A program made the position numbers and the translations under genes. Below the pieces are notes generated by a model. It did not search any database. It was not told the DNA's origin and saw nothing but the letters and a program-made list of their open reading frames with translations. Positions 19,567 through 51,228 of a stretch of DNA of 64,000 bases are shown one piece after another. The stretch is from an uncultured Ruminococcus sp. (GTDB taxonomy: Bacteria; Bacillota; Clostridia; Oscillospirales; Ruminococcaceae), in NCBI GenBank assembly GCA_947624295.1, contig CANQJV010000005.1:1-64000 (forward strand). The letters are read 5' to 3'. Positions within the stretch are counted from its first letter, which is position 1; every line of letters begins with the position of its first letter.

Positions 19567-20940
19567 TCAATTTTTTTGTAAAAGCAATTTATCAGTAATC
19601 TGACGCATTATAACAACGTCAAACACATCAACTCTGTTATCGTTGTTGAGGTCGCAGGAATATTCTGCCTCTTCCACGCCAAGTACATGGTAGGAACAAT
19701 ATACGAGGTCAGCAATCGAAATTTTACCGTCGTGATTGAGGTCACCATATTCAAATTCTTTTTCCGGAGAAGTGGTTGTAGTTGCTTTTGTTGAAATTGT
19801 TGTAGTTTTAGTTGCAGTTGTGGTAGATTTTGTTGAAGTTGTTGTAGTTGTAGCAGTCGCAGGATTTTCCCCGTAATTCCATTCAGCAAGTTCAGGGTAT
19901 TTGAGTTTTACAGTAGAATAGCTTTCGCAGGGAGTGTGATTCGTATTGAAATCGTCCGAACCTTTCATAAAATACGTGTCAGCGACTTCAATACCGTCTC
20001 TGCCATCCTTGTCGTCCCATGTAACGTCAACGGCATACCAGCAATTGTCCTCCATAAGCACGTAATTCCACATATGAGCCGCTTGTTCATCTGCATTGTA
20101 GTTACCGAAAACGCATACGCAAGGGATATTTTCACGGTCGCAAATCAGCTTGAAACCTTTGGCATAACTTTCGCACACGGAGCCTGAAGTAACAAGTGAA
20201 CCGAGGGCTGAACCTGAAAAATCAGCAGTCATATCGTAATAAGTAAAATTTGCAATCTTATCGTGAATATCTTTTAACTTTTCAACAGTAGTATCGCCTT
20301 CAACTTCAAAATCAGCTACAGCTTTCTCAAGAAGTCCCTTGTATTCGATAATTTCGTCCAAATCGGCGAAAGTACTGTAGCAGGACGGTGTAATTGTCAG
20401 GGAACTAAGCGTATAGGTGTATTTTCTTTTCATGAAATTGTAAGAATATCTGACTTCATCGGGAGATACAGAGATTTTATTGTGGTCAACCCAGAAAATT
20501 TCAGGCATATCGAAAAGAACCGCATTAAAAGCACTTGAACACGAACCGAAAACGGCGTTGTATAATTCGGGGCTGTTTGACGTAATCATGGAAGAAGCCG
20601 TAAATTCAACAGGTTCAGGCAGTTGTACAGTTATGCTGTCGAGTGTCGGCGTAACAAGTTTTGCCATTTCCGCATATACTGCTTTATTGTTAGCGTCGAG
20701 ATAATCCCCTAAAAGCCAGCCTTTCCCCGAAACAGAATCGTCAGCGGAAACAGCAGTCACATCAGGGAGATTCAGCGAAATACCGTTGTTTTCGCCCAAA
20801 ATAAGCTGTTCATCTGAAAAATCAATGACACCTGTTTCGATACTCTGCGTATCATCAGCGAAAACAGTAAATGGTGTTATTCCGATAGCAAGTGAAAGCG
20901 AAATCATAGCTGACAATGCAGGACGTAAAAAAAATTTCAT
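19567..20940 (-). CDS. secreted transglutaminase-like protein with C-terminal dockerin
   Basis: Signal peptide; SVCESYAKGFKLICDRENIPCVCV...HMWNYVLMEDNCWYAVDVTWDD transglutaminase core; Thr-rich linker; dockerin YGDLNHDGKISIADLV...CDLNNDNRVDVFDVVIM. Confidence 0.9.
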   Translation of the reverse strand: MKFFLRPALSAMISLSLAIGITPFTVFADDTQSIETGVIDFSDEQLILGENNGISLNLPDVTAVSADDSVSGKGWLLGDYLDANNKAVYAEMAKLVTPTLDSITVQLPEPVEFTASSMITSNSPELYNAVFGSCSSAFNAVLFDMPEIFWVDHNKISVSPDEVRYSYNFMKRKYTYTLSSLTITPSCYSTFADLDEIIEYKGLLEKAVADFEVEGDTTVEKLKDIHDKIANFTYYDMTADFSGSALGSLVTSGSVCESYAKGFKLICDRENIPCVCVFGNYNADEQAAHMWNYVLMEDNCWYAVDVTWDDKDGRDGIEVADTYFMKGSDDFNTNHTPCESYSTVKLKYPELAEWNYGENPATATTTTTSTKSTTTATKTTTISTKATTTTSPEKEFEYGDLNHDGKISIADLVYCSYHVLGVEEAEYSCDLNNDNRVDVFDVVIMRQITDKLLLQKN

Positions 20941-22570: not shown

Positions 22571-23908
22571 TTATTCAGTGAACACATTTTCTTTAATTAT
22601 GTTGTAATTTGCATCGAAATCAACTATAAGCGCATCACCGCTTGATGTAGATTCTCCATAATACGTGTTTTCAGCAGGTATCTGTAATTGTGCTGTATCG
22701 TAGCCAATCAGAAACGGTACTCTCAGAGAAAGCATATACAATTCTTCTGAAGTCATATTTGTTGTAACGTTCGGCATTACACTTTCAGATATATTGTTTA
22801 TTGCTGACGGCGCAAAAGATTTCAGCTTGTCTATGACGAGTTCCATAACACGCCTTTGCCTTTCAGTGCGTTCGAAATCAGCATTGCCGACGTAACGTAT
22901 ACGTGCATATGATAATGCCTGTTTGCCGTTCAAGTGAATTTTTCCGCCTCCTGTAAGCAAGTCCGACAGCGTATCATCTCCCATAATTGAATTTACTTCA
23001 GCCTGTAGAATTGTATTTATTTCCTGCGCCTCCGCATCAGATATATCAAGGTCAATTCCGCCGACTGAATCAATGATATTGGCGAAAGATACAAAATTCA
23101 CTGAAACATAACTGTCTATTTTCACACCGAAATTATGTTCTATCGTATCCATAAGCAAGTCAGCACCGCCGTAAGAATAAGCAGAATTCAGCTTATCCCA
23201 ACCATAGTTAGGGATTTCAACGTAGCAGTCACGCATAAACGATGTGAGTGTGACTGTATTTGTACTTCTGTTCATTGACAGGAGCATCATTGTATCTGAA
23301 CGTCCCCTTTCGGTATCAGTTCTGCCGTCCGTGCCTATAAGCAATACGCTTGTGACATAACTCCTCGATAAAGCTCCGTTTGTTCTGATGCGGTCTCCTG
23401 TTTCGGAGTATTCCATTTTATCAATAAGTTTGCAGACGGTACATGAGTATATCCCGAAAAGCAATACAAGTATAATCAGCAGGACAATCAGCAGTCTTAT
23501 GACGAATCTCGCAAGAAAAGATTTATGTTTTTTCTTTTTCTTTTTTTTCTTTGGAGGAGGAGCAGATGAAGTCTTTTTGCGTTGAGGTTTTCTTTCGGGA
23601 GGTTTTTGCGGTGGATAGGGATTTTGCTGATACGGTTGAGGATATTGCTCCTGATATGGCTGATTGTACTGCTGAGGTTGCTGATATTGCTGATTGTACT
23701 GCTGAGGTTGCTGATATTGCTGATTGTATTGTTGCGGTTGCTGATATTGCTGACCGTACTGTTGAGGTTGCTGACGTGACTTGTTAGTACGCCGTAACGG
23801 TTTCATATTACGGGATTCCTGCCTGTACTGCTCTCTGATTTCAGGCGGAATATATATAGTATCCGTATTCTGATTATCCATATTATCCGAATTTTTTCTG
23901 TCTGACAT
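22571..23908 (-). CDS. LytR-CpsA-Psr (LCP) family protein with Gln/Tyr/Pro-rich N-terminal repeat
   Basis: LLIGTDGRTDTERGRSDTMMLLSMN, SFMRDCYVEIP, GGIDLDI, QALSYARIRYVGNADFERTERQRRVM LCP motifs; one TM. Confidence 0.93.
   Translation of the reverse strand: MSDRKNSDNMDNQNTDTIYIPPEIREQYRQESRNMKPLRRTNKSRQQPQQYGQQYQQPQQYNQQYQQPQQYNQQYQQPQQYNQPYQEQYPQPYQQNPYPPQKPPERKPQRKKTSSAPPPKKKKKKKKHKSFLARFVIRLLIVLLIILVLLFGIYSCTVCKLIDKMEYSETGDRIRTNGALSRSYVTSVLLIGTDGRTDTERGRSDTMMLLSMNRSTNTVTLTSFMRDCYVEIPNYGWDKLNSAYSYGGADLLMDTIEHNFGVKIDSYVSVNFVSFANIIDSVGGIDLDISDAEAQEINTILQAEVNSIMGDDTLSDLLTGGGKIHLNGKQALSYARIRYVGNADFERTERQRRVMELVIDKLKSFAPSAINNISESVMPNVTTNMTSEELYMLSLRVPFLIGYDTAQLQIPAENTYYGESTSSGDALIVDFDANYNIIKENVFTE
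23630..23775. repeat. in-frame 30-bp tandem repeat encoding QQYQQPQQYN units
   Basis: Repeated tgctgattgtactgctgaggttgctgatat unit inside the LCP CDS. Confidence 0.85.
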
Positions 23909-23925: not shown

Positions 23926-26403
23926 CTATTTCAATCTCCTGATGTTGACCGCAATACAGGTGACAGCAGTGCAGATGAGGTTATACAGCACCATAGCTGT
24001 CGAGGACATATATATATAGTCAAATTCAAACGCTTTCGAAAGAATAAGCATTATGGACAAGCCGATTCCGAGGAGAATTGATACTGTCTGTATGATAAGA
24101 CCTGTTATTGCCGATGAATGTATGATTTTTATTCCGAGGATAAGCTGAATAAACGATGTAAAACGTCCCGTGCAAGCCATAGAGGCGCTCATACGGACTG
24201 CTTTGCGGGTTTCCTCGTTGAAATCCCTGTGAAGACGTTTCGGGATAATCCTGATTAAATCCTGCGGAATATTGAAAACCTGCGAAATTTTTTCTCTTGT
24301 AATAAAAGGGTCAATACTTTTTACAATAAGGCAGATTTTCTTCTTAACTAATCTTTCCGCCCATTTTTTTATGTACCTGTCTGTAGTGAGGTCAATCACA
24401 AACATAGCTGACAAATTCCCCGAAATCGAAAGATATATGGGAGCATTCCCCTCTGCGTATTCAGTTTCCTGCGCTTTTGTGGGGATTCCTTCTATATTAT
24501 GCGATTCCATCAGTTCACGTGTGCCGAGAAGTATACGCCTGTTGTTAATCCATCCGCAAAGCCCCATATCTTCTTCATAGGAGAAGTTTTCCACGGGATA
24601 GAGCAGTTTTTCACGCCCTATGATGATGTCATCAAAAAGTTTCTGCATAACACTGCCCGAATTATACGTAAGGCTTGCAGCGTCAAGGAGTGCTTCGGGT
24701 AGTTTTGTGTTCGAAAAGACCTTTATTCCGCCGAGTTTGACAGTACCTTCAGGGAAAAGCGTTTCAGCCTCCAACAGCATAGAATTAGCGTCATACAGGT
24801 CATCAACACTCTGATAGCCTAAGAGAATACCTTTGCCCGTGAGAGTTTGCTTTGATATTTTTTCAAGCGGGATATTGGCTGTAAACGGCAACGCCATACA
24901 GGAAGTCGCACATATCAGCATACTGAATATAGAAAATCCAAATGCAAGCGACTGCATTGACAAAAGTGTGCCGATTCTCACGAAAGTAAGGGCAACTGAT
25001 ATAATCAGAGATACTATAAAGCATATGGGGACGGCTTTCCGGCAATAGCTGTCCGTTATATCCGATGAATAGCTGTATTTCAGGAAATCCGTAAGAAAAT
25101 CAGTTTTCCGCATAGCCGCAAGAATAGGGAAATCGCCTAAAGTCCCTCTTGTTAAGCGTTCAGCACGTTCCTCGTTACGCACGTAGACAACAGCGTGACG
25201 GTCAAAATTACGTGACACAAAGTTGAAATTACGCCCTGCACGCTTAAGAATCATAAGTTTCCCCATAGAATTGAACAGCATTGCAAGTATTCCTACAGGC
25301 ATATATATATGAGTGACTTCGTTCATCGCCATATCGGGTTGGAAAAAGGCTATAACAACAGATATAATGCAGGTTATAGCGGTTACAGCCGTCATAGAAT
25401 CGCTGTCTGCCTTGAATTTGAAAAGATTCGATATGCCTTTTGAAATCACGGGAGCTGAATAGAACAGTGCGAGTAATCCAAGCAAAAGATGTGCTGTAAG
25501 ATACGAATAAATTTGGTTTATGCTGAGGAAATCAGCTATCGGCAAATTAAAACGGCTGCAAATCATTATGTACAGGCTTAAGAAAGCTGTCAGCCCGAGA
25601 ACAGTCGCCCTTGTGGAAATAATTTCCTTAAGTTCGTAAATATCACGCCCTACGTCCTGAACGTCACCGTAATAATTGAAGTCAACAATCCGCTTAGTGC
25701 GTTCCTGAGTATACGGGTCTTTGCTGTAATCCTCAACGCTTATATCGAGGTCACTCGCCTTGACATTCCTCTTGCTGCTGAGATTTATGCTTGTTCTTTT
25801 GGCACGGGGTGCAGGCGTGGGAGGTTTAGTTTTCCTGACTGTTTCAGGTGACGGAACAATATCAGTGATACGTTTTTTCCCCTCATTTTCGGCGTTATTG
25901 TTATTTGAAGTACGGCGTTTTTTCTTTTTGGACTGCGTGGGAGTGTACATATATTCGCCGTCAGGTGTTTCCCGTGAATAAGTCTGCCTGCTTAAGGGAG
26001 AATGCTTTTTCTTTTTGGAACGCCTTTCAGCCTCTCTTGCCCTCGTGGAATCGGACATTCGCCGTATTTTAGTAGAATCGTCAGGGATTACAACTTCTTT
26101 TTTCTTAGGTCGGCGAGGTTTCACCTCGTTCAGACCGTCCGAACCTGCCGTTACGACTTTTTTGCGGGAGAGTTCACTCGGCGAAGGCTTTATATTGGGG
26201 TTTTCCACTTCCCCGTCAAAAAGTTCGTTTTTCTCGTGGGATACGGTCGGGCGAGGAGGCTCGTCTTTTTTGGGAGCAGTTTTCTTGATGAGAGTGGAGT
26301 TTATAATTTTCTGCGCATCTCTCCTGCCAACGTGTATAGTGCTGTCATCATCGGAGGAATATTCCTCAAGGATATTTTCAAGCGATAATTTGTTATCGTC
26401 CAT
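23926..26403 (-). CDS. degenerate P-type ATPase-like membrane protein (catalytically dead?)
   Basis: C-terminal half aligns by eye to P-type ATPases (GILLGYQSVDDLYDANSMLLEAETLFPEGTVKLGG at the DKTGT position; GLCGWINNRRILLGTRELMESHNI; LYLSISGNLSAMFVIDL-type actuator/N-domain text); charged basic N-terminal region. Confidence 0.65.
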   Translation of the reverse strand: MDDNKLSLENILEEYSSDDDSTIHVGRRDAQKIINSTLIKKTAPKKDEPPRPTVSHEKNELFDGEVENPNIKPSPSELSRKKVVTAGSDGLNEVKPRRPKKKEVVIPDDSTKIRRMSDSTRAREAERRSKKKKHSPLSRQTYSRETPDGEYMYTPTQSKKKKRRTSNNNNAENEGKKRITDIVPSPETVRKTKPPTPAPRAKRTSINLSSKRNVKASDLDISVEDYSKDPYTQERTKRIVDFNYYGDVQDVGRDIYELKEIISTRATVLGLTAFLSLYIMICSRFNLPIADFLSINQIYSYLTAHLLLGLLALFYSAPVISKGISNLFKFKADSDSMTAVTAITCIISVVIAFFQPDMAMNEVTHIYMPVGILAMLFNSMGKLMILKRAGRNFNFVSRNFDRHAVVYVRNEERAERLTRGTLGDFPILAAMRKTDFLTDFLKYSYSSDITDSYCRKAVPICFIVSLIISVALTFVRIGTLLSMQSLAFGFSIFSMLICATSCMALPFTANIPLEKISKQTLTGKGILLGYQSVDDLYDANSMLLEAETLFPEGTVKLGGIKVFSNTKLPEALLDAASLTYNSGSVMQKLFDDIIIGREKLLYPVENFSYEEDMGLCGWINNRRILLGTRELMESHNIEGIPTKAQETEYAEGNAPIYLSISGNLSAMFVIDLTTDRYIKKWAERLVKKKICLIVKSIDPFITREKISQVFNIPQDLIRIIPKRLHRDFNEETRKAVRMSASMACTGRFTSFIQLILGIKIIHSSAITGLIIQTVSILLGIGLSIMLILSKAFEFDYIYMSSTAMVLYNLICTAVTCIAVNIRRLK

Positions 26404-26417
26404 AACTTAATCCCTCC

Positions 26418-27188
26418 TCAATTGCCTGACGAAGTGCGTTGGCGGAGGACTTCGTACATAAATATACCGCCTGCAACAGAGGCATTCAGTGAATTTATCT
26501 TCCCCAGCATAGGCAATTTCACCATAAAATCACATTTTTTTTGTATAAGATGACTGATTCCGAAACCCTCCGAGCCTATGACAATCGCACAACTTCCCGT
26601 GAAATCGGTCTTTGTGTAGTCGTTTCCTGTAGCGTCAGTCCCGTAAATCCACACGCCATTATCTTTGAGTTTATCAATAGCTGCCGAGAGATTCGAGACT
26701 CTTGCGACGGGAACATAACTTGCCGCACCTGCCGACGTTTTGAAAACAGTCGCATTAAGCCCTGCACTACGTCTTTTCGGGATAATCACGCCGTCCGCCC
26801 CTGAAGTTTCAGCTGTACGGATAATAGCTCCCAGATTATGCGGGTCCTCAATTTCGTCACATATGATTATAAAAGGCTTTGTGCCTTTTTTTGCGGATAT
26901 ATCGAGGATTTCCTCTATGCTGACGTATTGACCGCACGCACCCACGGCAACAACTCCCTGATGTGAAACATTCCCCGATAATTTGGACAGTTTACCGTCC
27001 TGAACGTCTTTCACAGGGATACCGTTTTCCCTTGCGAGTTTTCTGATGAGGTTAAGGCTACCGCCCTCACCGCTGATGTAAATTGTATCAAGATTTGCAT
27101 TTGACTTCAGAGCCTCGATAACCGGATTTCTGCCGAATATGACGTTGTTATCAGAATCGTTTTTTGTAAAATCATTTTCATTTTTCAT
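26418..27188 (-). CDS. rlmB: 23S rRNA 2'-O-ribose methyltransferase, TrmH/RlmB family
   Basis: IFGRNPVIEALKS; DEIEDPHNLGAIIRTAETSGADGVIIPKRRS; IVIGSEGFGISHLIQKKCDFMVKLPMLGKINSLNASVA. Confidence 0.93.
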   Translation of the reverse strand: MKNENDFTKNDSDNNVIFGRNPVIEALKSNANLDTIYISGEGGSLNLIRKLARENGIPVKDVQDGKLSKLSGNVSHQGVVAVGACGQYVSIEEILDISAKKGTKPFIIICDEIEDPHNLGAIIRTAETSGADGVIIPKRRSAGLNATVFKTSAGAASYVPVARVSNLSAAIDKLKDNGVWIYGTDATGNDYTKTDFTGSCAIVIGSEGFGISHLIQKKCDFMVKLPMLGKINSLNASVAGGIFMYEVLRQRTSSGN

Positions 27189-27343: not shown

Positions 27344-28048
27344 TTACTCAGAAACTGCTATTTCAGAATATGCTGAAAGAATTTCAGATGCATCAGATGA
27401 GTTTATTTCTCCGTCACCGTTCACATCTCCGAGAGTTGACATAGCCTGTTCAGAACAGAAATCGCCGCTTTGTCCTGTTGATTTTTGTGCATAGTATGCA
27501 AGAACATATGAAGCGTCAACAGCGTCTAAGTGATTATCAGCGTTGACATCGCCGACAGCAAATTCCTGAAAATATACGTGGAGGAGGCACGCCGCATCAT
27601 CTGAAAGTATACGTCCGTCACCGTTTATATCGCCGTAATTCTGAACATTTTCAAGCATTTCGCTGCTGAGGGGAATAACACGGAAAGATGTATCACCGTA
27701 AGTCAATATTTCAGCGGAATCATCTACAAAAGGTGCATAGTAGGCATTATCAGCAAGGACATTGAATGAACTGTTATCCCAGTTAATATCATCAACTGTC
27801 GGGTATGTGCTTAAATCCGCATAATATTCGCACACAAGGGCTGCATCAATGGGATTGAAAGTGCCGTTCCCGTCAAAATCAACAAAATATCTGCCGTCTT
27901 TTATGCCGTCTGAAAGTTCGTTACAAAATTCATCCTCTGTTGCGAAATCAGACATACTGATTTTTTCGTACTCTTCAGCCGATGATGTGAATGACACAGC
28001 CGACAAAGCAACGCTTACAAAAGTTAATAAAGATAACATTTTTTTCAT
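27344..28048 (-). CDS. secreted protein with multiple dockerin-type EF-hand repeats
   Basis: Signal peptide; DFDGNGTFNPIDAALVCEYY, GDINGDGRILSDDAACLLHVY, GDVNADNHLDAVDASYVLAYY, GDVNGDGEINSSDASEILSAY. Confidence 0.88.
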   Translation of the reverse strand: MKKMLSLLTFVSVALSAVSFTSSAEEYEKISMSDFATEDEFCNELSDGIKDGRYFVDFDGNGTFNPIDAALVCEYYADLSTYPTVDDINWDNSSFNVLADNAYYAPFVDDSAEILTYGDTSFRVIPLSSEMLENVQNYGDINGDGRILSDDAACLLHVYFQEFAVGDVNADNHLDAVDASYVLAYYAQKSTGQSGDFCSEQAMSTLGDVNGDGEINSSDASEILSAYSEIAVSE

Positions 28049-34893: not shown

Positions 34894-36252
34894 TTATTCT
34901 AAATTTTCGCCCTGATTTGCAAGCAACATTTGTATAGCTAAAGCGTCATTGCCCGTGATACCCTCCTGACTGTCGCAGTCAGCATTAGCAAGACCCTGCT
35001 CCGTGAGCGCATATGTGTCATGATTGCCGATATGCTGTATTATAGCAGCAACATCAGCCATATTGACAGCACCGTCACAATTTGCGTCGCCCGTTTTCAC
35101 ATCGCCTGCAACAGTAGTTTCAGTTGTGCCTGTAGTTGTGACTGCGGTAGTCTCAGTTGCTCCTGACGTTGTGACAGCAGTGGTAGTTTCAGGAGCAGTA
35201 CCCTTTTCCCATACAGCCGTAAGCATTATACCTGCGCCGGGTTTTGCGCCTAAAATAGTATATTCCTCGCCTGCCTGATAGATTTCACCGCTTTCAGTTT
35301 TCCAGCCGGCGAAATATTTTCCGTCAACAGTAATATCAGGTTCGGGGCAGATTATCTGCGTATCAGTTTTACCCTCTACCTTTATATTAGTACCGCCGTT
35401 GCCCTGTTTGAAAACGACATTATAAGTTTTAGGTTCCCATACAGCCGTGAAAGTAACATCAACATCGGGGCAAGTTACTATCTCAAGAGGCTTGTATATT
35501 TTACCGTCGTAATCCGACAGCCAGCCCACAAGATTAAAGCCGTCACGGGAAAATCTGTCGCTGTTAGCAAGGTCAGTGAAAGAGCCTTCATTTTTCGGGA
35601 AAGTCTGCACTGTACTGCCGTTCAGGCGGTCAACGTCACCTGCGAGGTAGGTGAAAGTTATTCTTTTGAACCATATCGGCGTAACGACGACATCTTCAGC
35701 AGGCATAATGAAATGCCCTCCATAGACGAGGTTATAGCCGTCCATGATAGTAAGCCCGTGAGTATATGCGCCATCAATTTGTATTTCCGTGAAATCGGGC
35801 GTTACCATCTGACCTGCAACAGCTGATATATCTTTGAGCCATTCGGGGTAGTCGATAATTTCGCCGTGGAAATCGAGGTTGTAAGTTACATCATGGAAAT
35901 TTTTATCTTTCGGGTCATACCATACGGGTTCAAAGACGACTTCCTCAACGCCCTCGGGAGCAAGATAAGTTTCACCGCCGACGAATCCCTCTATACCATC
36001 AACAGTCCAGCCACTGAACTCATAGCCGTCCTTTTCGAATGTACCCTTTGGTATACTGCATATTCCCGTAGTGGTGACAGTATCCTCAAAAAGTGTAACG
36101 TCCGTCTTAAGCGCAGGCGACATATCGTCAGTTATGTTGAAAGATACTTTTACTTCAGCGGGAGCGTCCTCCTCAGCCGAAACGAACAGACCTGAAGAGC
36201 AGGTCAATGCTATAGCTGAAATCAGAGCTGTAAATTTGTTTAATTTTTTCAT
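34894..36252 (-). CDS. secreted InlB B-repeat (Listeria-Bacteroides repeat) protein with dockerin
   Basis: Repeats such as YEFSGWTVDGIEGF, FNLVGWLSDYDGKIYKP, KYFAGWKTESGEIYQAGEEYTI; dockerin GDANCDGAVNMADVAAIIQHIGNHDTYALTEQGLANAD. Confidence 0.88.
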   Translation of the reverse strand: MKKLNKFTALISAIALTCSSGLFVSAEEDAPAEVKVSFNITDDMSPALKTDVTLFEDTVTTTGICSIPKGTFEKDGYEFSGWTVDGIEGFVGGETYLAPEGVEEVVFEPVWYDPKDKNFHDVTYNLDFHGEIIDYPEWLKDISAVAGQMVTPDFTEIQIDGAYTHGLTIMDGYNLVYGGHFIMPAEDVVVTPIWFKRITFTYLAGDVDRLNGSTVQTFPKNEGSFTDLANSDRFSRDGFNLVGWLSDYDGKIYKPLEIVTCPDVDVTFTAVWEPKTYNVVFKQGNGGTNIKVEGKTDTQIICPEPDITVDGKYFAGWKTESGEIYQAGEEYTILGAKPGAGIMLTAVWEKGTAPETTTAVTTSGATETTAVTTTGTTETTVAGDVKTGDANCDGAVNMADVAAIIQHIGNHDTYALTEQGLANADCDSQEGITGNDALAIQMLLANQGENLE

Positions 36253-36856: not shown

Positions 36857-37354
36857 ATGAATACAGCTAAATCCACAGTTCCTTTCAAAGGTACAAAGGA
36901 ACAGGAAGCTCAGCTCCTCGCAATAATTGAGGAGAAAAAGAACACGCAGGGCGCACTTATGCCCATTCTCCAGAAAGCTCAGGAAATCTACGGCTACCTT
37001 CCTATTGAAGTTCAGACCATTATTTCCGATAACACCGGTATCCCACTCGAAAAAATCTACGGTGTTGTGACTTTCTACGCACAATTTTCTCTTTTCCCGA
37101 AGGGCGAATACACTATCTCAGTTTGTCTCGGTACTGCCTGCTACGTTAAAGGCTCAGGCGATATTTACGATAAACTTCAGGAAAAACTCGGCATTGCAGG
37201 CGGTGAATGTACTGCCGACGGTAAATTCTCCCTCGAAGCCTGCCGTTGTATCGGTGCCTGCGGACTTGCTCCCGTTCTTACTGTCAACGAGGACGTTTAC
37301 GGCCGTCTCACTGTTGATGACGTTGACAAAATCATCGAAAAGTATACAGCATAA
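36857..37354 (+). CDS. hydC: NuoE-like [2Fe-2S] subunit of NAD(P)-dependent [FeFe] hydrogenase
   Basis: PILQKAQEIYGYLP, GVVTFYAQF, VCLGTACYVKGSG, CRCIGACGLAPVLTVNEDVYG. Confidence 0.9.
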   Translation: MNTAKSTVPFKGTKEQEAQLLAIIEEKKNTQGALMPILQKAQEIYGYLPIEVQTIISDNTGIPLEKIYGVVTFYAQFSLFPKGEYTISVCLGTACYVKGSGDIYDKLQEKLGIAGGECTADGKFSLEACRCIGACGLAPVLTVNEDVYGRLTVDDVDKIIEKYTA

Positions 37355-37383
37355 TATACAATATCTGTTAGGAGGTTAATTCT

Positions 37384-39282
37384 ATGAAGACTCTTGAAGA
37401 ACTTAAAGCTGTCAGAGAGGCAAATGAGGGCGAAGTTGCTCTCAGAACTCATGGCAACGCTTCTTCAAAATACGAAAGACACGTGCTTGTCTGCGGCGGT
37501 ACGGGCTGTACTTCTTCCGGCTCTCCCAAAATTATCGAAAAACTTGAGGAGGAATTTGCAGCAAAAGGTCTGACTGATAAAGTCCAGATTGTAAAAACAG
37601 GTTGTTTCGGTCTCTGCGAAAGAGGTCCTATCATGATTGTTTACCCCGAAGGCTCTTTCTATTCCCGTGTGAATGTAGACGAAATACACCGCATTGTTGA
37701 CGAACATCTCATCGGCGGTAACCCTGTAAAAGAATTTCTCTATGAAGAAACTGTTGAGGGCGATACAATAAAAGCTCTCGATGATACTGCTTTCTATAAA
37801 AAACAGCACCGTGTTGCTTTAAGAAACTGCGGTGTCATTAACCCTGAAAATATCAACGAATACATAGGCAGAGACGGCTACAAGGCTCTCGGCAAAGTCC
37901 TCACCGAAATGTCACCAGAAGATGTTATTCAGACTATCCTCGATTCAGGACTCCGTGGACGTGGAGGCGGTGGTTTCCCGACAGGTATGAAATGGAAACT
38001 CGCAAGAAATATTGTTCCGGACGCTGATATGAAATACGTCTGCTGTAACGCTGACGAAGGCGACCCCGGTGCATTTATGGACCGTTCAGTGCTTGAGGGC
38101 GACCCTCATGTAGTTCTCGAGGCTATGACTATCGCCGGCTACGCTATCGGCGCAAAACAAGGTTATATTTACGTCCGTGCAGAATATCCTATCGCCGTTG
38201 AACGCCTTAATATCGCTATAAAACAGGCTCGTGAGGCAGGTATGCTCGGCAAGGATATTTTCGGTACAGGTTTTGATTTCGATATTGACCTGAGACTTGG
38301 TGCAGGCGCATTCGTCTGCGGTGAAGAAACTGCTCTTATGACTTCTATCGAGGGCAACCGTGGCGAACCTCGTCCCCGTCCTCCGTTCCCTGCTGAAAAA
38401 GGTCTTTTCCAGAAGCCCACAATCCTCAACAACGTTGAAACTTACGCAAATATCCCGCAGATTATCCTCAACGGTGCTGAATGGTTCGCATCAATGGGTA
38501 CTGAAAAATCAAAGGGTACAAAAGTTTTCGCACTCGGCGGTAAAATCAAGAATACAGGTCTTGTTGAAATTCCTATGGGTACAACTCTCCGTGAAGTCAT
38601 CGAGGAAATCGGCGGAGGTATCCCTAACGGCAAGAAATTCAAGGCTGCTCAGACAGGCGGACCGTCAGGCGGATGTATTCCTACTGAACATTTCGATATT
38701 CCGATTGACTACGATAACCTCATCGGTATCGGCTCAATGATGGGTTCGGGCGGACTTATCGTCATGGACGAAGATAACTGTATGGTTGATATTGCTAAAT
38801 TCTTCCTCGAATTTACTGTTGACGAATCATGCGGTAAATGTACTCCGTGCCGTATCGGTACAAAGAGAATGCACGAAATCCTTGACAAAATCACTAAGGG
38901 CAAGGGAACACTTGAGGATATTGACAAGCTCGAAGAACTCTGCTATCACATCAAATCAAATTCACTCTGCGGACTCGGACAGACTGCTCCTAACCCTGTT
39001 CTCTCAACACTTCGCTATTTCCGTGATGAGTATATCGCTCACGTCGTAGATAAAAAGTGCCCTGCCGGCGTATGTAAAGACCTTCTCAGCTTTGAAATCG
39101 ATAAGGATAAATGTTTCGGCTGCGGAATGTGCGCTAAACAGTGTCCCGCTGAAGCAATCAAAGTTACAGACTACACTGCTCCCGGCAAGAAAAAGCCTGC
39201 ATTTGAAATCGACAAGGATAAGTGCGTAAAATGCGGTGCTTGTATCGCTACATGTAAATTCAAGGCAATCAGCAAGAAATAA
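37384..39282 (+). CDS. hydB: NuoF-like flavoprotein subunit of electron-bifurcating [FeFe] hydrogenase
   Basis: N-term thioredoxin-like CGGTGCTSSG; GLRGRGGGGFPTGMKW; CCNADEGDPGAFMDR; ESCGKCTPCRIGT; two 4Fe-4S clusters at the C-term. Confidence 0.93.
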   Translation: MKTLEELKAVREANEGEVALRTHGNASSKYERHVLVCGGTGCTSSGSPKIIEKLEEEFAAKGLTDKVQIVKTGCFGLCERGPIMIVYPEGSFYSRVNVDEIHRIVDEHLIGGNPVKEFLYEETVEGDTIKALDDTAFYKKQHRVALRNCGVINPENINEYIGRDGYKALGKVLTEMSPEDVIQTILDSGLRGRGGGGFPTGMKWKLARNIVPDADMKYVCCNADEGDPGAFMDRSVLEGDPHVVLEAMTIAGYAIGAKQGYIYVRAEYPIAVERLNIAIKQAREAGMLGKDIFGTGFDFDIDLRLGAGAFVCGEETALMTSIEGNRGEPRPRPPFPAEKGLFQKPTILNNVETYANIPQIILNGAEWFASMGTEKSKGTKVFALGGKIKNTGLVEIPMGTTLREVIEEIGGGIPNGKKFKAAQTGGPSGGCIPTEHFDIPIDYDNLIGIGSMMGSGGLIVMDEDNCMVDIAKFFLEFTVDESCGKCTPCRIGTKRMHEILDKITKGKGTLEDIDKLEELCYHIKSNSLCGLGQTAPNPVLSTLRYFRDEYIAHVVDKKCPAGVCKDLLSFEIDKDKCFGCGMCAKQCPAEAIKVTDYTAPGKKKPAFEIDKDKCVKCGACIATCKFKAISKK

Positions 39283-39297
39283 GCGGAGGAATTATCA

Positions 39298-41040
39298 ATG
39301 GAAAATATTACAGTTAAAGTTAATGGTGTTGAAATCTCCGTACCAAAGGGAACAACAGTTCTTGAGGCTGCTCATCAGGCAGGTTTTGAGATTCCTACAC
39401 TTTGCTATATGAAAGAAATCAATGAGATTGGTGCTTGCCGTATCTGCATTACAGAAGTAAATGAAGGCAGAGGTTTCCGCCTCGTTGCAGGCTGTGTTTA
39501 CCCGTGTTCGGATAAAATGGAAATCCTTACAGCATCACCGAAAGTTATAGAGTCACGTAAAAAGACTCTTGAACTCATTCTCTCAACTCATGACAGAAAA
39601 TGCTTGTCATGCGTAAGAAGCGGCAACTGCGAACTCCAGAAACTCTGTAAAGATTACGGTGTTGAGGACGCATCAACTTATGACGGCTACAGAAATGAAT
39701 ACGAAATCGACAATTCAGCTGCTCATATGTACCGTGACAATAACAAATGTATTCTTTGCCGCCGTTGTGTTGCAGTATGCTCCAAAACACAAGGTATCGG
39801 TGTAATCGGCGCAAATGAACGTGGATTCAAGACATTCATCGGCTCTGCTTTTGAAATGGGTCTCGGCGAAACAAGCTGCGTATCATGCGGTCAGTGTATC
39901 GCTGTCTGCCCTGTCGGCGCAATCTCAGAAAAAGACTATGTCAAGGACGTTCTTGCTGCAATTGCTGACCCTGAAAAGACTGTTCTTGTACAGACAGCTC
40001 CTGCTGTACGTGCAGGTCTCGGCGAATGTTTCGGTCTCCCAATCGGCACAAACGTAGAGGGCAAAATGGTATCTGCTCTCAAGAAACTCGGTTTCGACAA
40101 AGTATTTGATACAGACTTCTCCGCTGACCTCACAATCATGGAAGAGGCTGCTGAATTTGTTGACAGACTGAAGAACGGCGGAAAACTCCCGCTTATCACA
40201 TCATGTTCACCGGGCTGGGTTAAATTCTGCGAACACTATTTCCCCGATATGATTGAAAATCTGTCTTCATGCAAGTCACCTCAGCAGATGTTCGGTGCAG
40301 CTGCAAAGACTTACTACGCTGAAAAAATGGGTCTTGACCCGAAAAATATCGTTATGGTTTCAGTTATGCCCTGTACCGCAAAGAAATTCGAAATCGGACG
40401 TGATGACCAGAGTGCAGCAGGTGTTCCTGATGTTGATTACGTTCTCACAACTCGTGAACTCGGCAGAATGATTGAACGTGCAGGTATCAATTTCCTCGGT
40501 CTTGCTGATGAACAATTCGATGAACCGCTTGGAATTTCAACAGGTGCAGGTACAATCTTCGGCGCAACAGGCGGTGTTATGGAGGCAGCACTCCGTACAG
40601 CTGTACACACTCTCACGGGCGAAAATCCGATTGATTTCCCTGAAGTACGTGGCACTGAGGGTATCAAAGAGGCTGAATATGACGTTGCAGGCACAAAAGT
40701 TAAAGTTGCTGTTGCAAGCGGACTTGCTAACGCAAGAGAATTGCTTGAAAGAGTACAGAAAGGTGAAGCTGATTACCAGTTCATCGAAATTATGGCTTGT
40801 CCGGGCGGTTGTGTAAACGGCGGTGGTCAGCCACAAGTTCCGATGGGTATCAGAAACTTCGTTGACATCAGAGAAAAGAGAGCAAAAGTTCTCTATGATA
40901 TTGACGCTGCAATGCCGTTAAGACAGTCACACGAGAACCCTGCTATCAAGGCTATATACGATGAATATTTCGGTCAGCCGGGTAGTCACAAGGCTCATGA
41001 AGTTCTCCATACTTCCTATGTCAAGAGAAGTGTAAACTGA
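39298..41040 (+). CDS. hydA: [FeFe] hydrogenase catalytic subunit, NADH-dependent
   Basis: NuoG-like N-term; H-cluster motifs ITSCSPGWVKFCEHYFP, VMPCTAKKFEIGR, IEIMACPGGCVNGGGQP. Confidence 0.95.
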   Translation: MENITVKVNGVEISVPKGTTVLEAAHQAGFEIPTLCYMKEINEIGACRICITEVNEGRGFRLVAGCVYPCSDKMEILTASPKVIESRKKTLELILSTHDRKCLSCVRSGNCELQKLCKDYGVEDASTYDGYRNEYEIDNSAAHMYRDNNKCILCRRCVAVCSKTQGIGVIGANERGFKTFIGSAFEMGLGETSCVSCGQCIAVCPVGAISEKDYVKDVLAAIADPEKTVLVQTAPAVRAGLGECFGLPIGTNVEGKMVSALKKLGFDKVFDTDFSADLTIMEEAAEFVDRLKNGGKLPLITSCSPGWVKFCEHYFPDMIENLSSCKSPQQMFGAAAKTYYAEKMGLDPKNIVMVSVMPCTAKKFEIGRDDQSAAGVPDVDYVLTTRELGRMIERAGINFLGLADEQFDEPLGISTGAGTIFGATGGVMEAALRTAVHTLTGENPIDFPEVRGTEGIKEAEYDVAGTKVKVAVASGLANARELLERVQKGEADYQFIEIMACPGGCVNGGGQPQVPMGIRNFVDIREKRAKVLYDIDAAMPLRQSHENPAIKAIYDEYFGQPGSHKAHEVLHTSYVKRSVN

Positions 41041-41185: not shown

Positions 41186-43558
41186 TTAATTAACTTTTGT
41201 GTAAACTTGTCCGCCGTCAAGCGTTTTATTTTTTACAGCAAACATCTCTGATATTGAAACTATCTGCCAGCCCTGCTCTTTGAGGTAAGGAGCAAGATAT
41301 TCCATAGCTTCAGCAGTTGTGTTGTAAGTTTCGTGCGCAAGAATAATTGCACCGTCAAGCGAACCGTTATTTTTTGCCGAAATTATAGTGTTGATAATGT
41401 CATCTTTTGAGGCATTATTCCAGTCAGCAACATCAATACTGCAAGTAATCATAGGTACGTCGCTGAGAGTCTGCTTTACTGTATCATTTACAGCAAGGTA
41501 GGGTAATCTGAGGAGTTTAGATGGTTCAGTGCCGATAATTCCCTTGAGTTTTGCATCTGTTGTATCAAATTCACTGCGGATTTCAGCAGGTGATTTTTGT
41601 GTGAGATACGGGTGTGAAGTCGTATGATTAGCGATTTCCATGCCCTTTGAGAAAGCGTATCTTACTTCTTCTTCCCTGCCTGAATTGTTAATCCAGTCGC
41701 CTACGTAAAAGAAAGTAGAATGGAATCCCGAATCAGAAAGAGCGTTTATAATTCTCATTGAAGTATCTTGCGGGGAATTTCCTACAGCACCGTCATCAAA
41801 TGAAATTGCAACCATTGGTTTAGAGGGGTCAATCCACGAAATATCTACACCGCCTGTTGGTGCAGGGAGAGTTGTAACTTCAGGGATTGTTGTTACTTCT
41901 GTAACTGTTGTTGTTTCGGGAGTTTCGGGAGTATCAACTGAACCCATAGGAAGTCTGCTGATTTGTTTTGCTAAAAACTGCTGTATTGCAAAAGCGTCCA
42001 TTCCCGTGAGAGTTGCCTCGCCGTCACAAAATTCAGCGTTAGCAAAGCCTTTTTCTGAAAGCGTATATAAATCGTGATTACCTATGTGCTGGATAATTGC
42101 AGCAACGTCAGCCATATTGACTTCGCCGTCACAATTTGCGTCACCGTAAACAATACCGTTTTCTGAAGTCGTGGGAACTTGCTGAGTTGTAGGGACTTCT
42201 TCTGTTGTGACTGTTTCAGTTGTTGTCTGTACAGGTTTTTCAGCAGTTGTTGCGGTTGTAGTGGTTTCAGCTACAGCACCCTCAACTGTACCGTTTCCTG
42301 TAACTACAGTTGATTTTGTGCCCTCTTTTGCGCCTATTGCCTCGTCAATATAGAAATCTGTCAGGCTTTCGGGAGCCTCAACGTAAAGGAGCATATTTGT
42401 AGCACCGTTCGGGATTGTAAACGATGTATTTTCGAGTTTAGTCCACTCACCGCTCTTAACGTCAGCAGCTGCAACTTCATCATAATTATCTTCGCCGTTG
42501 AGAGTGTACTGAAGTGTGAGTTTCATTTGAGTTGTTTCGCCTGATTTCTGGAGGACTGCCGTGCTGAAACTGTACGCATTACCGGGAATAAACGTTTTGG
42601 AGTCGAGTGAAATAGCTGTACCGTTCCAATTATCAGTACGTCCGCTTACGAAAAGGGAATTTTTACCCTCATAGTAATTATTCGAATCAAGTTTAACTGT
42701 AGCGTCACCACGTCCGCCCCAATCATCTTCGCCTGTTTCGAATGTACTCCTGAAATAATAGCCGTTTTCATCAGGTTCAACAGGTGTGGGAGGTGTTACA
42801 ACTGTACCGCCGTCACCGTCACCTTCGCCGATTACAAGACCGTTTTTATTTACAGCTGCACTTCCGTTTGACTGGTAGCCCTCGATATTAAGGGCAACTT
42901 CGTACATTTTACCGCTCATATCAAGACCTGCTTTTTCCCACGCATCGAAGTGTTTTGAAACGCTTATTCTGCCTTCAATATGTTTCTTGACATTATTTTG
43001 TGCGGGATTATCCTGACGGACACTCCAGTACTGGTAGAAAGTTTCCGTGCCGTGAATTGACGGCTGATTTTCTCTTACAGTCCTGTAAATGTCATATTTG
43101 TTACCGTTCGCCTCAACAGTACCGAGTGAATCATTACTTCCGGGTGGTCTCCAACTTCCCCATGCTTCGACGATGTAGTACTCAACAGTAGGGTCCTCCG
43201 TCCAACCGTAAACGCACATATAGGAGTTACCTTTTGGTTCGTAGTCAACATCATAGTCGATATACATACCGTTGTAATCCTCATAATTTTTTGTACTGCC
43301 GAGTTTCTTACCGGTACGGAACAAACAGTTCTCAATGCCTGTCCAACTACACGTAAAAGCACCGTTACTGCCAACGTCCATAGTCGCAGTACCTTGACCC
43401 CATTGATTCCAGAGTTCATAGTCGTAGCCGTCTTTAGTACCAAGCTGTTGCTGGTCTGCCGCATTTGTTGTGAAAGTAGGTATACTTGCGAAACAGAGCA
43501 TTGAGCCGATAAAACCGCTGACTAATCTGCTGAAAAAGCCTTTTTTCATTTGATTCAT
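41186..43558 (-). CDS. bifunctional xylanase/acetyl-xylan esterase: GH11 - CBM22 - dockerin - CE4
   Basis: GH11 NSYMCVYGWTEDPTVEYYIVEAWGSWRPPG; CBM22-like FRSTFETGEDDWGGRGDATV; dockerin GDANCDGEVNMADVAAIIQHIGNH; CE4 VAISFDDGAVGNSP...EIANHTTSHPYLT. Start may be the second Met (43549). Confidence 0.93.
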   Translation of the reverse strand: MNQMKKGFFSRLVSGFIGSMLCFASIPTFTTNAADQQQLGTKDGYDYELWNQWGQGTATMDVGSNGAFTCSWTGIENCLFRTGKKLGSTKNYEDYNGMYIDYDVDYEPKGNSYMCVYGWTEDPTVEYYIVEAWGSWRPPGSNDSLGTVEANGNKYDIYRTVRENQPSIHGTETFYQYWSVRQDNPAQNNVKKHIEGRISVSKHFDAWEKAGLDMSGKMYEVALNIEGYQSNGSAAVNKNGLVIGEGDGDGGTVVTPPTPVEPDENGYYFRSTFETGEDDWGGRGDATVKLDSNNYYEGKNSLFVSGRTDNWNGTAISLDSKTFIPGNAYSFSTAVLQKSGETTQMKLTLQYTLNGEDNYDEVAAADVKSGEWTKLENTSFTIPNGATNMLLYVEAPESLTDFYIDEAIGAKEGTKSTVVTGNGTVEGAVAETTTTATTAEKPVQTTTETVTTEEVPTTQQVPTTSENGIVYGDANCDGEVNMADVAAIIQHIGNHDLYTLSEKGFANAEFCDGEATLTGMDAFAIQQFLAKQISRLPMGSVDTPETPETTTVTEVTTIPEVTTLPAPTGGVDISWIDPSKPMVAISFDDGAVGNSPQDTSMRIINALSDSGFHSTFFYVGDWINNSGREEEVRYAFSKGMEIANHTTSHPYLTQKSPAEIRSEFDTTDAKLKGIIGTEPSKLLRLPYLAVNDTVKQTLSDVPMITCSIDVADWNNASKDDIINTIISAKNNGSLDGAIILAHETYNTTAEAMEYLAPYLKEQGWQIVSISEMFAVKNKTLDGGQVYTKVN

Positions 43559-48375: not shown

Positions 48376-48873
48376 TCAGCGGTTATCAATTGTTTCGGGG
48401 TGTAAATCATGGTGTGAAAGCCTGTCCCACGCAACCTGCTCCCATTTTGTATTCGGTGCGCCGTAATTGCAGTACGGGTCTATCGATATACCGCCTCTTG
48501 GGAGGAATTTCCCCCATACTTCTATATATTTCGGGCTCATCAGTTTAATTAAATCATTCATAATAATATTTATGCAGTCCTCGTGGAAATCGCCGTGATT
48601 CCTGAAACTGAACAGGTATAATTTCAGAGACTTGCTTTCAACCATTTTTTCAGACGGCACGTATGATATATATATACTCGCAAAATCAGGCTGTCCTGTA
48701 ATCGGGCAAAGGCTTGTAAATTCAGGGCAATTGAACTTGACGAAATAATCTCTTTCAGGGTGTTTGTTGGGGAATGTTTCCAGTAAATCAGGGTTATAAT
48801 CCTGCGGATATTTCGTGTTCTGATTCCCTAAAAGCGTAATATCGCCTTTTTCTGAGTCACTTCTTCCTGCCAT
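48376..48873 (-). CDS. queF: NADPH-dependent 7-cyano-7-deazaguanine reductase
   Basis: [29 protein letters not shown]-type core ([15 protein letters not shown]), [22 protein letters not shown]. Confidence 0.96.
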
Positions 48874-48877
48874 TATA

Positions 48878-49570
48878 TTACACTCCTTCCGTAAGCATAA
48901 GCGGGTCTTTTACGCCGTTCGCCTCAAATGCCTTTATTCTGTCACGGCAAGTCCCGCACACTCCGCACGGTTTACCGTTACCCTCGTAACAACTCCACGT
49001 CATTTCATACGGTACTTTCAATTCAAGACCTGTTTTTACAACGTCTTTTTTAGTTGAATTAACAAACGGTGCGACAATTTCAAGTTGTTTTCCACTGCCG
49101 ATATATACCGCCTCATTCATAGCCCTGTTGAACTCGTCACTGCAATCGGGGTAAGCGTTACCGGCTGAATCATCGCTATGCGCTCCGTAGTAAATCACAC
49201 TGCAACCATTTGACAGCGCAATACTTGACGCTGACGCAAGAAAAAGACCGTTCCTGAACGGCACATATGTAGATACAGGTTTACCGTTCGTCTTAGTGAG
49301 CTGTTCCGCATAACTTTCCTGAGGTATTTCCTCGTCGGACTGCTCCAGAAGTGAACAGTTGCTATCAGCGAAAATCTTAGTCAAATCAAGCGTTTTCAGC
49401 TGTACATTGTAAAACTCCGCTATTTTCTCCGCCGACTGTATTTCCCTGACGTGCTTTTGCCCGTAATATACGGACAATGCTATAACATTTTCTGCTCCGT
49501 ACTTTTCCACGGCAAGCGCAAGGCAAGTTGTGCTGTCAACTCCGCCACTGAATAAAACAAGTGCTTTCAT
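48878..49570 (-). CDS. queC: 7-cyano-7-deazaguanine synthase
   Basis: [59 protein letters not shown]. Confidence 0.96.
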
Positions 49571-49585
49571 AGTAATAATACTCCT

Positions 49586-50146
49586 TTAACCCAGAAGATT
49601 CTGCAAATCCCTGTTATTTTTGAATGCTCCGGTATATGTGCGTGTTTCAGTCCGTGCGGACGGATTACGTATTCCCCGTGCCGTCATGCAACTATGTGAA
49701 CCGATAATTTTCACGCCGACATCTTCAGAACCTGATGCTTCCGCAATAATTTCAGCAATATCCCTGCCGAGACGTTCCTGTAACTGTAACCGTTTCGCTG
49801 CCATATCGCATATTCTTGCTATTTTACTCAGCCCTAACACTTTACCGTGCGGAATGTATGCAACATTCACGGTCATATCGTACATAAGCGCAAGATGATG
49901 TTCGCAATAGCTGAACACGGTTATATCTTTCATCACCACAACTTCATGCTCGCCTTTATTTTCAGACGGGAATGTTTTCCCGAACATCTGCGCTATTTCG
50001 TGATTCGTGTACTCTGTCCCCTCAAGTACCTCCTCAAGCATACCTGCAACACGTTCAGGAGTGTCAAGCAAGCCTTCTCTGTCAGGATTTTCGCCGATTG
50101 CCTCAAGAAGTCCACGTATATGGAATTTTATTGCCTCCCTGTCCAT
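49586..50146 (-). CDS. folE: GTP cyclohydrolase I
   Basis: EGLLDTPERVAGMLEEV; YCEHHLALMYDMTVNVAYIPHGKVLGLSKIARI; GSHSCMTARGIRNP. Confidence 0.96.
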   Translation of the reverse strand: MDREAIKFHIRGLLEAIGENPDREGLLDTPERVAGMLEEVLEGTEYTNHEIAQMFGKTFPSENKGEHEVVVMKDITVFSYCEHHLALMYDMTVNVAYIPHGKVLGLSKIARICDMAAKRLQLQERLGRDIAEIIAEASGSEDVGVKIIGSHSCMTARGIRNPSARTETRTYTGAFKNNRDLQNLLG

Positions 50147-50147
50147 T

Positions 50148-50807
50148 TCAAACACCTCTTTCATCAGGATTCCATATGAATTTATGCAACTGTAATTGCA
50201 GTCTTACGTTATTTAACTTATTTTCTGCCATAAAATCAACAATTTCAGCAGGATTTATTTTATTAAAAACAGGGCTTATATATACAAGGCATTTTTTAGT
50301 TAAATCAAATTTATTTATAATATACAGCGTTTTTTCGAGGTCAGACCTGCTCCCCGCAACGAATTTCACAACATCACCGTCAGCAAGATACTTGTAATTA
50401 TCAGTAAGCATTGCTTTCTCCATACCACTCACGGGTAATTTATAGTCAAGCGTGAAATGCGGTCTGTATTCCTGCCGACTTAGTTCAGCAATCGATATAC
50501 TGCCGTTAGTTTCAATTTCGACGCTGTTCCCCTGTTTTATGAGCAATTCCACAAGTCCGCCTATGTCACTTTGGAGCAGAGGTTCTCCGCCTGTAAGAGT
50601 AACATTTTTAACGCCTGTATCGCCTATATATTCAGCTATTTCATCAGCCGTCATAATTTCAGCGTGTGCATTTTCATCATTTGCCCATTTCGTATCGCAA
50701 TAAGAACAGTTCAGATTACATCGCCTGAACCTGATAAATACAGCCAGTTCCCCTGCCCTGCAACCCTCGCCGTTTATGCTTATGAATTTTTCAACTACCG
50801 GAAACAT
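50148..50807 (-). CDS. queE: 7-carboxy-7-deazaguanine synthase (radical SAM)
   Basis: CNLNCSYCDTKWAN; TLTGGEPLLQSD; position in que operon. Confidence 0.94.
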   Translation of the reverse strand: MFPVVEKFISINGEGCRAGELAVFIRFRRCNLNCSYCDTKWANDENAHAEIMTADEIAEYIGDTGVKNVTLTGGEPLLQSDIGGLVELLIKQGNSVEIETNGSISIAELSRQEYRPHFTLDYKLPVSGMEKAMLTDNYKYLADGDVVKFVAGSRSDLEKTLYIINKFDLTKKCLVYISPVFNKINPAEIVDFMAENKLNNVRLQLQLHKFIWNPDERGV

Positions 50808-50808
50808 A

Positions 50809-51228
50809 CTACACCTCATAGACTGCGCAATTATCGGGAGTTTCATACACCGTGACCGATTTCAGCACAAGCCCCTGCGCCAACAATTTCTCGTAGAAAC
50901 AGCGTGCGAAATTCTCCGCTGTCGGTCTGAACGGTACTTCAATCAGCCTGAAATTTTCGCTCTCCAATGCCTGTATTGTGGTCGGTTTAAGTGAATTTCT
51001 CTCGTAAATAAGGGCGTGGTCATAGTTATCAGCGAGTTCTCTGACGATTCTCTTCAAATCGCCGAAATCAGTCAGCATACCACGTTTTTCGCCTGATTCC
51101 TGTAATTCGTCGCCCATAGTGAGCACTTCAATGACCCAGTGATGACCGTGTATATTTGCACATTTACCGTTATAGCCGTGCAGAAAATGAGCACTGTCGA
51201 AATTTGCAGATATTTTGAGGTAATACAT
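50809..51228 (-). CDS. queD: 6-carboxytetrahydropterin synthase
   Basis: FDSAHFLHGYNGKCANIHGHHWVIEV; MLTDFGDLK; YDHALI; VYETPDNCAVYE. Confidence 0.95.
   Translation of the reverse strand: MYYLKISANFDSAHFLHGYNGKCANIHGHHWVIEVLTMGDELQESGEKRGMLTDFGDLKRIVRELADNYDHALIYERNSLKPTTIQALESENFRLIEVPFRPTAENFARCFYEKLLAQGLVLKSVTVYETPDNCAVYEV

Follow-up and report, generated by a model that had tools for sequence, protein, structure and literature searches.

A conserved single-copy pseudo-P1B-ATPase family in the order of Ruminococcus, probably reused as a membrane scaffold or receptor

We describe a gene from an uncultured Ruminococcus sp. whose product descends from a CopA-like copper pump, as homology, fold and collinearity show. 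The protein no longer has its metal site, phosphorylated Asp, phosphatase loop or Mg2+-binding hinge, and it has lost most of its ATP contacts. The gene is kept by strong purifying selection. Having lost both its catalytic and its metal motifs, the protein very probably cannot run a phosphorylation cycle and does not pump. Taking all the evidence together, we think it probable that it belongs to a conserved, single-copy family of non-pumping pseudo-P1B-ATPases that has been reused as a membrane scaffold or receptor.

Results

A descendant of copper pumps

The source genome (2.06 Mb in 69 contigs) encodes five ordinary P-type ATPases besides the protein described here, and the stretch that we analyzed, 64,000 nt long and called the window below, lies on its contig C5. 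The gene and its two neighbors are as follows.

23926..26403, minus strand: pseudo-P1B-ATPase gene, 825 amino acids (intact open reading frame, homology, fold and order-wide family)
26418..27188, minus strand: rlmB, 23S rRNA 2'-O-methyltransferase, 14 nt upstream (SpoU_methylase, E=1.8e-44)
22571..23908, minus strand: LCP (LytR-CpsA-Psr) gene, 17 nt downstream (LytR_cpsA_psr, E=3.6e-42)

A search of Pfam gave no meaningful match to the protein. Used as a single sequence, it is matched by the NCBIfam CopA model over residues 542–721 (E=1.1e-7), and phmmer found Legionella CopA (PDB LpCopA) at E=2.4e-6. The family profile matches LpCopA far more strongly (E=8.2e-33 for the whole sequence) in three collinear blocks, one covering the membrane helices that precede the A domain, one running from M3 into the P and N domains and one covering M5–M6; of these, only the middle block is significant by itself. 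Homology over the membrane, P and N domains thus makes the protein a P1B-type ATPase by descent.

Its predicted structure agrees. AlphaFold, run with the family alignment, modeled residues 228–825 with a pLDDT of 89.8 and a pTM of 0.86, and a Foldseek search of the PDB with this core returned LpCopA first (E=1.6e-18), followed by ATP7B, ZntA and other P1B pumps. A first-pass annotation, made by a model from the letters and open reading frames, had suggested such a structural comparison, and all of the top matches are P1B pumps. They span nearly the whole length at TM-scores of about 0.43–0.55, values to be expected for altered, rearranged domains. The modeled fold and membrane plan are those of a P1B pump, with the following layout.

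25216..25671, minus strand: first membrane block, residues 245–396 (MA, MB, M1 and M2), from model helices and the first LpCopA block
25060..25215, minus strand: A-domain remnant, about residues 397–448, without TGE, from length comparison and motif counts (TGE[SP] in 0/114)
24838..25059, minus strand: M3–M4, residues 449–522, with ATSCM at 499–503 instead of CPC, from motif counts
24745..24771, minus strand: former active site EAETLFPEG, residues 545–553, with derived, conserved F550-P551, from the alignment
24169..24831, minus strand: P and N domains, residues 525–745, with G614 and G627 kept and HP lost, from Foldseek and column statistics
24310..24312, minus strand: D698, the Asp of the TGD motif, kept in 98% of 113 members
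23944..24162, minus strand: M5–M6, residues 748–820, with the preceding GDGxND segment missing, from model helices and the third LpCopA block

The A domain is much reduced throughout the family: the stretch from M2 to M3 has a median length of 53 residues (range 40–70), against about 130 in canonical CopA.

Loss and remodeling of the active site

In P-type ATPases, the phosphorylated Asp sits at the end of the first P-domain strand. Alignment sets the VVDKTGTLTEG of LpCopA against LLEAETLFPEG, which makes E545 the phospho-Asp position. This register is supported independently by the strand position, as E545 ends the first P-domain strand predicted in the model (541–545), and by the spacing to the Asp of the TGD motif, which is 153 residues here and 146–159, mostly 151–152, in 18 canonical pumps. 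The first-pass annotation had called the protein a pseudo-P-type ATPase without the phosphorylated Asp, which stands, given the P1B match in sequence and fold and the lack of DKTGT anywhere in the 825 residues. It had taken FPEGT for the replacement of DKTGT, a register that is five residues off; EAETL, with E545, is what aligns there. It had also found no apparent TGD motif. This is right for the Thr and Gly, which are gone from this protein, and wrong for the Asp: D698 is the one residue of the motif that is kept, in 98% of relatives.

We compared these sites across 113–114 distinct family members and the 18 canonical pumps. Neither DKTGT nor DK occurs at the aligned site in any member (0/114 for each). 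Residue 545 is D in 39 members, T in 15, N in 14, S in 13, R in 8, E in 7 and other residues in the remainder, and K never follows it. That 39 of 114 members keep an Asp at the phospho-Asp site, if never as DK, counts against the pseudo-pump reading. The first-pass annotation had proposed asking whether the loss is conserved in orthologues; it is, with the residue varying even within the genus (D 12, N 9, E 5, S 3 and G 1 among 30 members). Two members carry an unrelated DKTGS within the N-terminal tail.

The other functional motifs have gone the same way. The TGE[SP] phosphatase loop of the A domain is found in 0/114 members. Both the GDGxND Mg2+ hinge, whose absence had been noticed at first pass, and the CPC metal motif in M4 are found in 0/114 members versus 18/18 canonical pumps. 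The HP motif of the N domain is lost as well, with SGSV where pumps have SEHP; across the family, His is not a major residue at this site and Pro accounts for 31%. Two N-domain glycines are kept (G614 in 99% and G627 in 100%). At the old active site, the family has acquired a derived motif, FPxG[TS], with F in 85% and P in 91% of members, at positions where canonical pumps mostly have I/L-T. A new conserved motif at a dead active site points to a new function rather than drift. The site does not have the DxD nucleophile of HAD-type phosphatases, there being no conserved acid.

A disordered N-terminal arm

The first-pass annotation had noted a basic N-terminal extension of about 230 residues, and our analysis bears this out: the first ~232 residues form a basic tail with a net charge of +15 that is predicted to be disordered.

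25684..26403, minus strand: N-terminal arm, residues 1–240, basic, of low complexity and predicted disordered, from pLDDT, composition and selection
26359..26385, minus strand: SLENILEEY, residues 7–15, predicted short helix and candidate docking site, from enrichment and the modeled helix at 8–14

In the full-length model, pLDDT over residues 1–240 is mostly 31–56, short helices such as 8–14 excepted. A SLENILEEY-type motif occurs within the first 120 residues of 13/24 order-wide members, against 1.7 in shuffles, and its strict form in 8/24, against 0 in shuffles. Within ~866 kb of DNA, most of it from the surroundings of these loci, the motif lies near an N terminus in family members only. 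This enrichment suggests a candidate docking site for a putative partner, but the motif is conserved only partly across families, which counts against reading the arm as a docking device. We also considered other carriers of the motif as candidate partners and rejected them, as those we looked at turned out to be antisense frames, NifH, DprA and a lipoprotein. The full-length model, judged by pLDDT and secondary structure alone, gave no confident docking of the arm motif onto the protein's own body. Arms may be far longer elsewhere: in the relatives G250:C11 and G503:C113, with open frames of 1459 and 1488 amino acids, they may reach at least 800 residues.

An order-wide family under purifying selection

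A family member was found in 56/60 near relatives and in 42/42 of those with good-quality genomes. A search profile (A1) built from 31 family members matched 192/197 sampled genomes of the order, which GTDB calls Oscillospirales, covering 113/115 genera with one copy each. A sample of the class gave a match in 14/15 genomes of the order, including the source genome (E=1.9e-222; the others at 1e-95 or better, over model positions ~4–580). No family member was found in the 279 class genomes outside the order, which gave only ordinary P1B-like matches (model positions ~217–504, E of 1e-38 or weaker). Only two genomes matched in a phylum sample of 150, both from the order, and a scan of named genomes with the single protein found relatives in Ruminococcus only, R. 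flavefaciens included. Identity between families is ~20%.

Five sampled genomes of the order gave no match. In one of them (G349), the contig breaks off after rlmB, within the first part of the pseudo-ATPase gene, and in the other four rlmB is likewise without a match. Because rlmB was present in 45/45 sampled class genomes, these four probably reflect an assembly hole or the loss of both genes together. None of the five shows rlmB followed by a region devoid of the pseudo-ATPase gene, and true absence or replacement is disfavored by the contig end in G349 and the missing rlmB. Two genomes of one genus (G374 and G427 of g220, 97% and 95% complete) have neither rlmB nor the pseudo-ATPase matched, by joint loss or through assembly holes.

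Compared with four relatives, the core of the gene has a pN of 0.075–0.162 and a pS of 0.67–0.81, with synonymous sites near saturation, and a pN/pS of roughly 0.11–0.20. Constraint on the P and N domains is about the same as on the remaining core, and the arm is about two to three times looser. Loss of catalytic residues across orthologues in a gene under purifying selection is what a pseudoenzyme is expected to show, and this gene shows both. One copy, L057:4164-6560 in genome G057, is split by a single in-frame TGA, which could reflect a sequencing error, a broken copy or recoding.

Gene neighborhood and origin

Both neighbors had been pointed out at first pass, correctly; the gaps are 17 nt to the LCP gene and 14 nt to rlmB. 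The suggested link to LCP is weakened, because LCP adjacency is limited to the genus: among the examined loci, a downstream LCP gene occurs in this genus only, other families having EF-G-like or other genes there. The conserved neighbor is rlmB. In 58/60 loci, a set that contains some loci twice, it immediately precedes the pseudo-ATPase gene on that gene's strand, mostly within 40 nt, and these loci include 22/23 other families. The two exceptions are a locus cut by its contig (L066) and one with a YchF-like gene in that place (L037). The pseudo-ATPase is probably transcribed with rlmB in an arrangement that is old; a shared function need not follow from this. In the LCP protein itself (22571-23908), the N-terminal part is repetitive, of the QQYNQQYQQP type, and a run of lysines immediately precedes the membrane helix.

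Outside the order, many different genes lie downstream of rlmB. In one outside family (f39), however, an intact CopA gene stands directly behind rlmB in 3/4 genomes (L227:6351-8567(+), also L228 and L229), with a gap of a few nucleotides or a short apparent overlap. These CopAs share their position behind rlmB and their superfamily with the pseudo-ATPase and differ by having intact catalytic and metal motifs (HMA, TGES, CPC, DKTGT, HP and GDGIND). The arrangement, which we looked for in only part of the class, is plausibly the ancestral state; by a rough estimate, coincidence would produce one such family among some thirty sampled with a probability of a few percent. In a tree, the members of the pseudo-ATPase family group in a single clade (100/100), whose stem has a length of 1.85 changes per site. 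A join of this clade to the f39 CopAs is neither favored nor rejected (p-AU 0.25, with 0.39 for a join to other CopAs), as expected given the long stem.

Further genes elsewhere in the window were assigned by reading their sequence. Dockerin-like proteins with D-x-N-x-D repeats, resembling those of cellulosome-type Ruminococcus, appear at 19567-20940, 27344-28048, 34894-36252, 41186-43558, 52742-54799 and 60411-61796. Positions 36857-41040 hold an apparent electron-bifurcating [FeFe]-hydrogenase operon, and 48376-51228 an apparent queuosine precursor operon (queF, queC, folE, queE and queD).

Discussion

Exaptation to a non-pumping role had been proposed at first pass, and the family-wide motif losses together with strong purifying selection make non-pumping the best reading. 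We envision that the body of a copper pump was reused for a job other than pumping and kept by selection for it. The eight-helix body would hold a cytosolic head made of the P and N domains. With its remodeled former active site (the FPxG[TS] loop, D698 and the two N-domain glycines), this head may bind a ligand or partner. A second, cytosolic partner would be reached by the long disordered arm and the short helical motif near its N terminus. For such a membrane-anchored scaffold or receptor, with one putative partner or ligand at the head and another at the arm, sequence and model features leave the chances about even. A fuller history is more tentative: a copper pump behind rlmB may have been converted once into an order-wide, core-genome receptor or scaffold that binds a new ligand at the remodeled site and whose arm recruits a cytosolic machine, for example of envelope growth, division or ribosome maturation.

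The retained and derived residues could also be read as those of a ligand or metal sensor rather than a passive scaffold, with a nucleotide, metal or metabolite bound at the head or within the membrane and its binding signaled through the arm. A binding site is indeed suggested by the glycines kept in the N domain and by the new motif where the active site used to be, and a disordered arm is suited to signaling, but the protein has no fused effector domain and no regulator gene as a conserved neighbor, and it lacks both the adenine-binding HP motif and the metal-binding CPC; we consider a sensor unlikely. A slim chance attaches to the idea that rearranged catalysis keeps the protein working as an enzyme or pump, for example as a HAD-type phosphatase or as an ATPase that uses a neighboring acid (D or E around 545–548 with D698). 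D698 is present in 98% of members, acids are frequent at 545–548 and the two glycines of the N domain vary hardly or not at all. However, no single acid is conserved around 545–548, the nucleophile position varies even within the genus, and GDGxND, TGE and CPC are absent from all members.

The fixed gene order would be explained if the protein were a membrane partner of RlmB in ribosome maturation, as might be read from its position behind rlmB in 22/23 other families and from the four genomes in which neither gene was matched. Yet RlmB is present in all 45 sampled class genomes, nearly all of them outside the order and without the pseudo-ATPase, and shared gaps can be single assembly holes, as in G349, because the genes are adjacent; we give this role a small probability. 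A role in sporulation is very improbable: SpoIVA occurs in 185/197 of the same order genomes, but 11 of the 12 that lack it keep the pseudo-ATPase, among them four genomes of one genus, so the cross-table lends the idea no support. Finally, the high divergence between families (~20% identity) might be taken as a sign of a decaying pseudogene or of chance resemblance to P-type ATPases. Intact open reading frames across the order and the low pN/pS of the core rule out decay, and the profile match to LpCopA together with the confident P1B fold rules out chance, leaving a negligible probability for either.

Among known systems, the best sequence and fold match is CopA, the P1B-1 copper exporter (LpCopA, PDB 3rfu/4bbj; PRK10671, TIGR01511), which shares with the pseudo-ATPase MA, MB, M1–M6, the order of the A, P and N domains and the collinear blocks. 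Unlike CopA, the pseudo-ATPase has no HMA, CPC, TGE, DKTGT, HP or GDGxND, its A domain has ~53 rather than ~130 residues and a disordered arm replaces the metal-binding domains. Because the nearest family models are copper pumps, proteins of this kind are at hazard of being annotated as such. The nearest precedent that we found is the guanylate cyclase beta of Plasmodium, which contains a degenerate P4-ATPase domain whose signature residues are mostly unidentifiable (PMC6592433). That domain likewise combines a P-type ATPase fold with degenerate signatures; it belongs to a eukaryotic lipid-flippase subfamily and is fused to a cyclase, whereas the present protein is a stand-alone bacterial P1B derivative. 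With pseudoenzymes in general, such as pseudokinases, the family has in common a conserved fold, lost catalytic residues and retention by selection, and it differs from them in that the fold is that of a membrane transport ATPase. Our searches of open-access papers turned up no account of a bacterial family of pseudo-P-type ATPases, and a keyword search of a 2023 review of open questions on P-type ATPases (PMC10654040) yielded nothing on them. We likewise found no model dedicated to the family in Pfam or NCBIfam.

The phosphorylated Asp is the defining feature of the P-type pumps, a textbook enzyme superfamily. The family described here makes it testable whether the fold of a transport ATPase can take on the work of a receptor or scaffold. 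A nameless protein that occurs in single copy in almost all sampled members of an order prominent in gut and rumen, it is a good target for such work. If the conversion to a receptor or scaffold is true, bacteria would have a family of pseudo-P-type ATPases that is probably of essential importance to the organisms that carry it.
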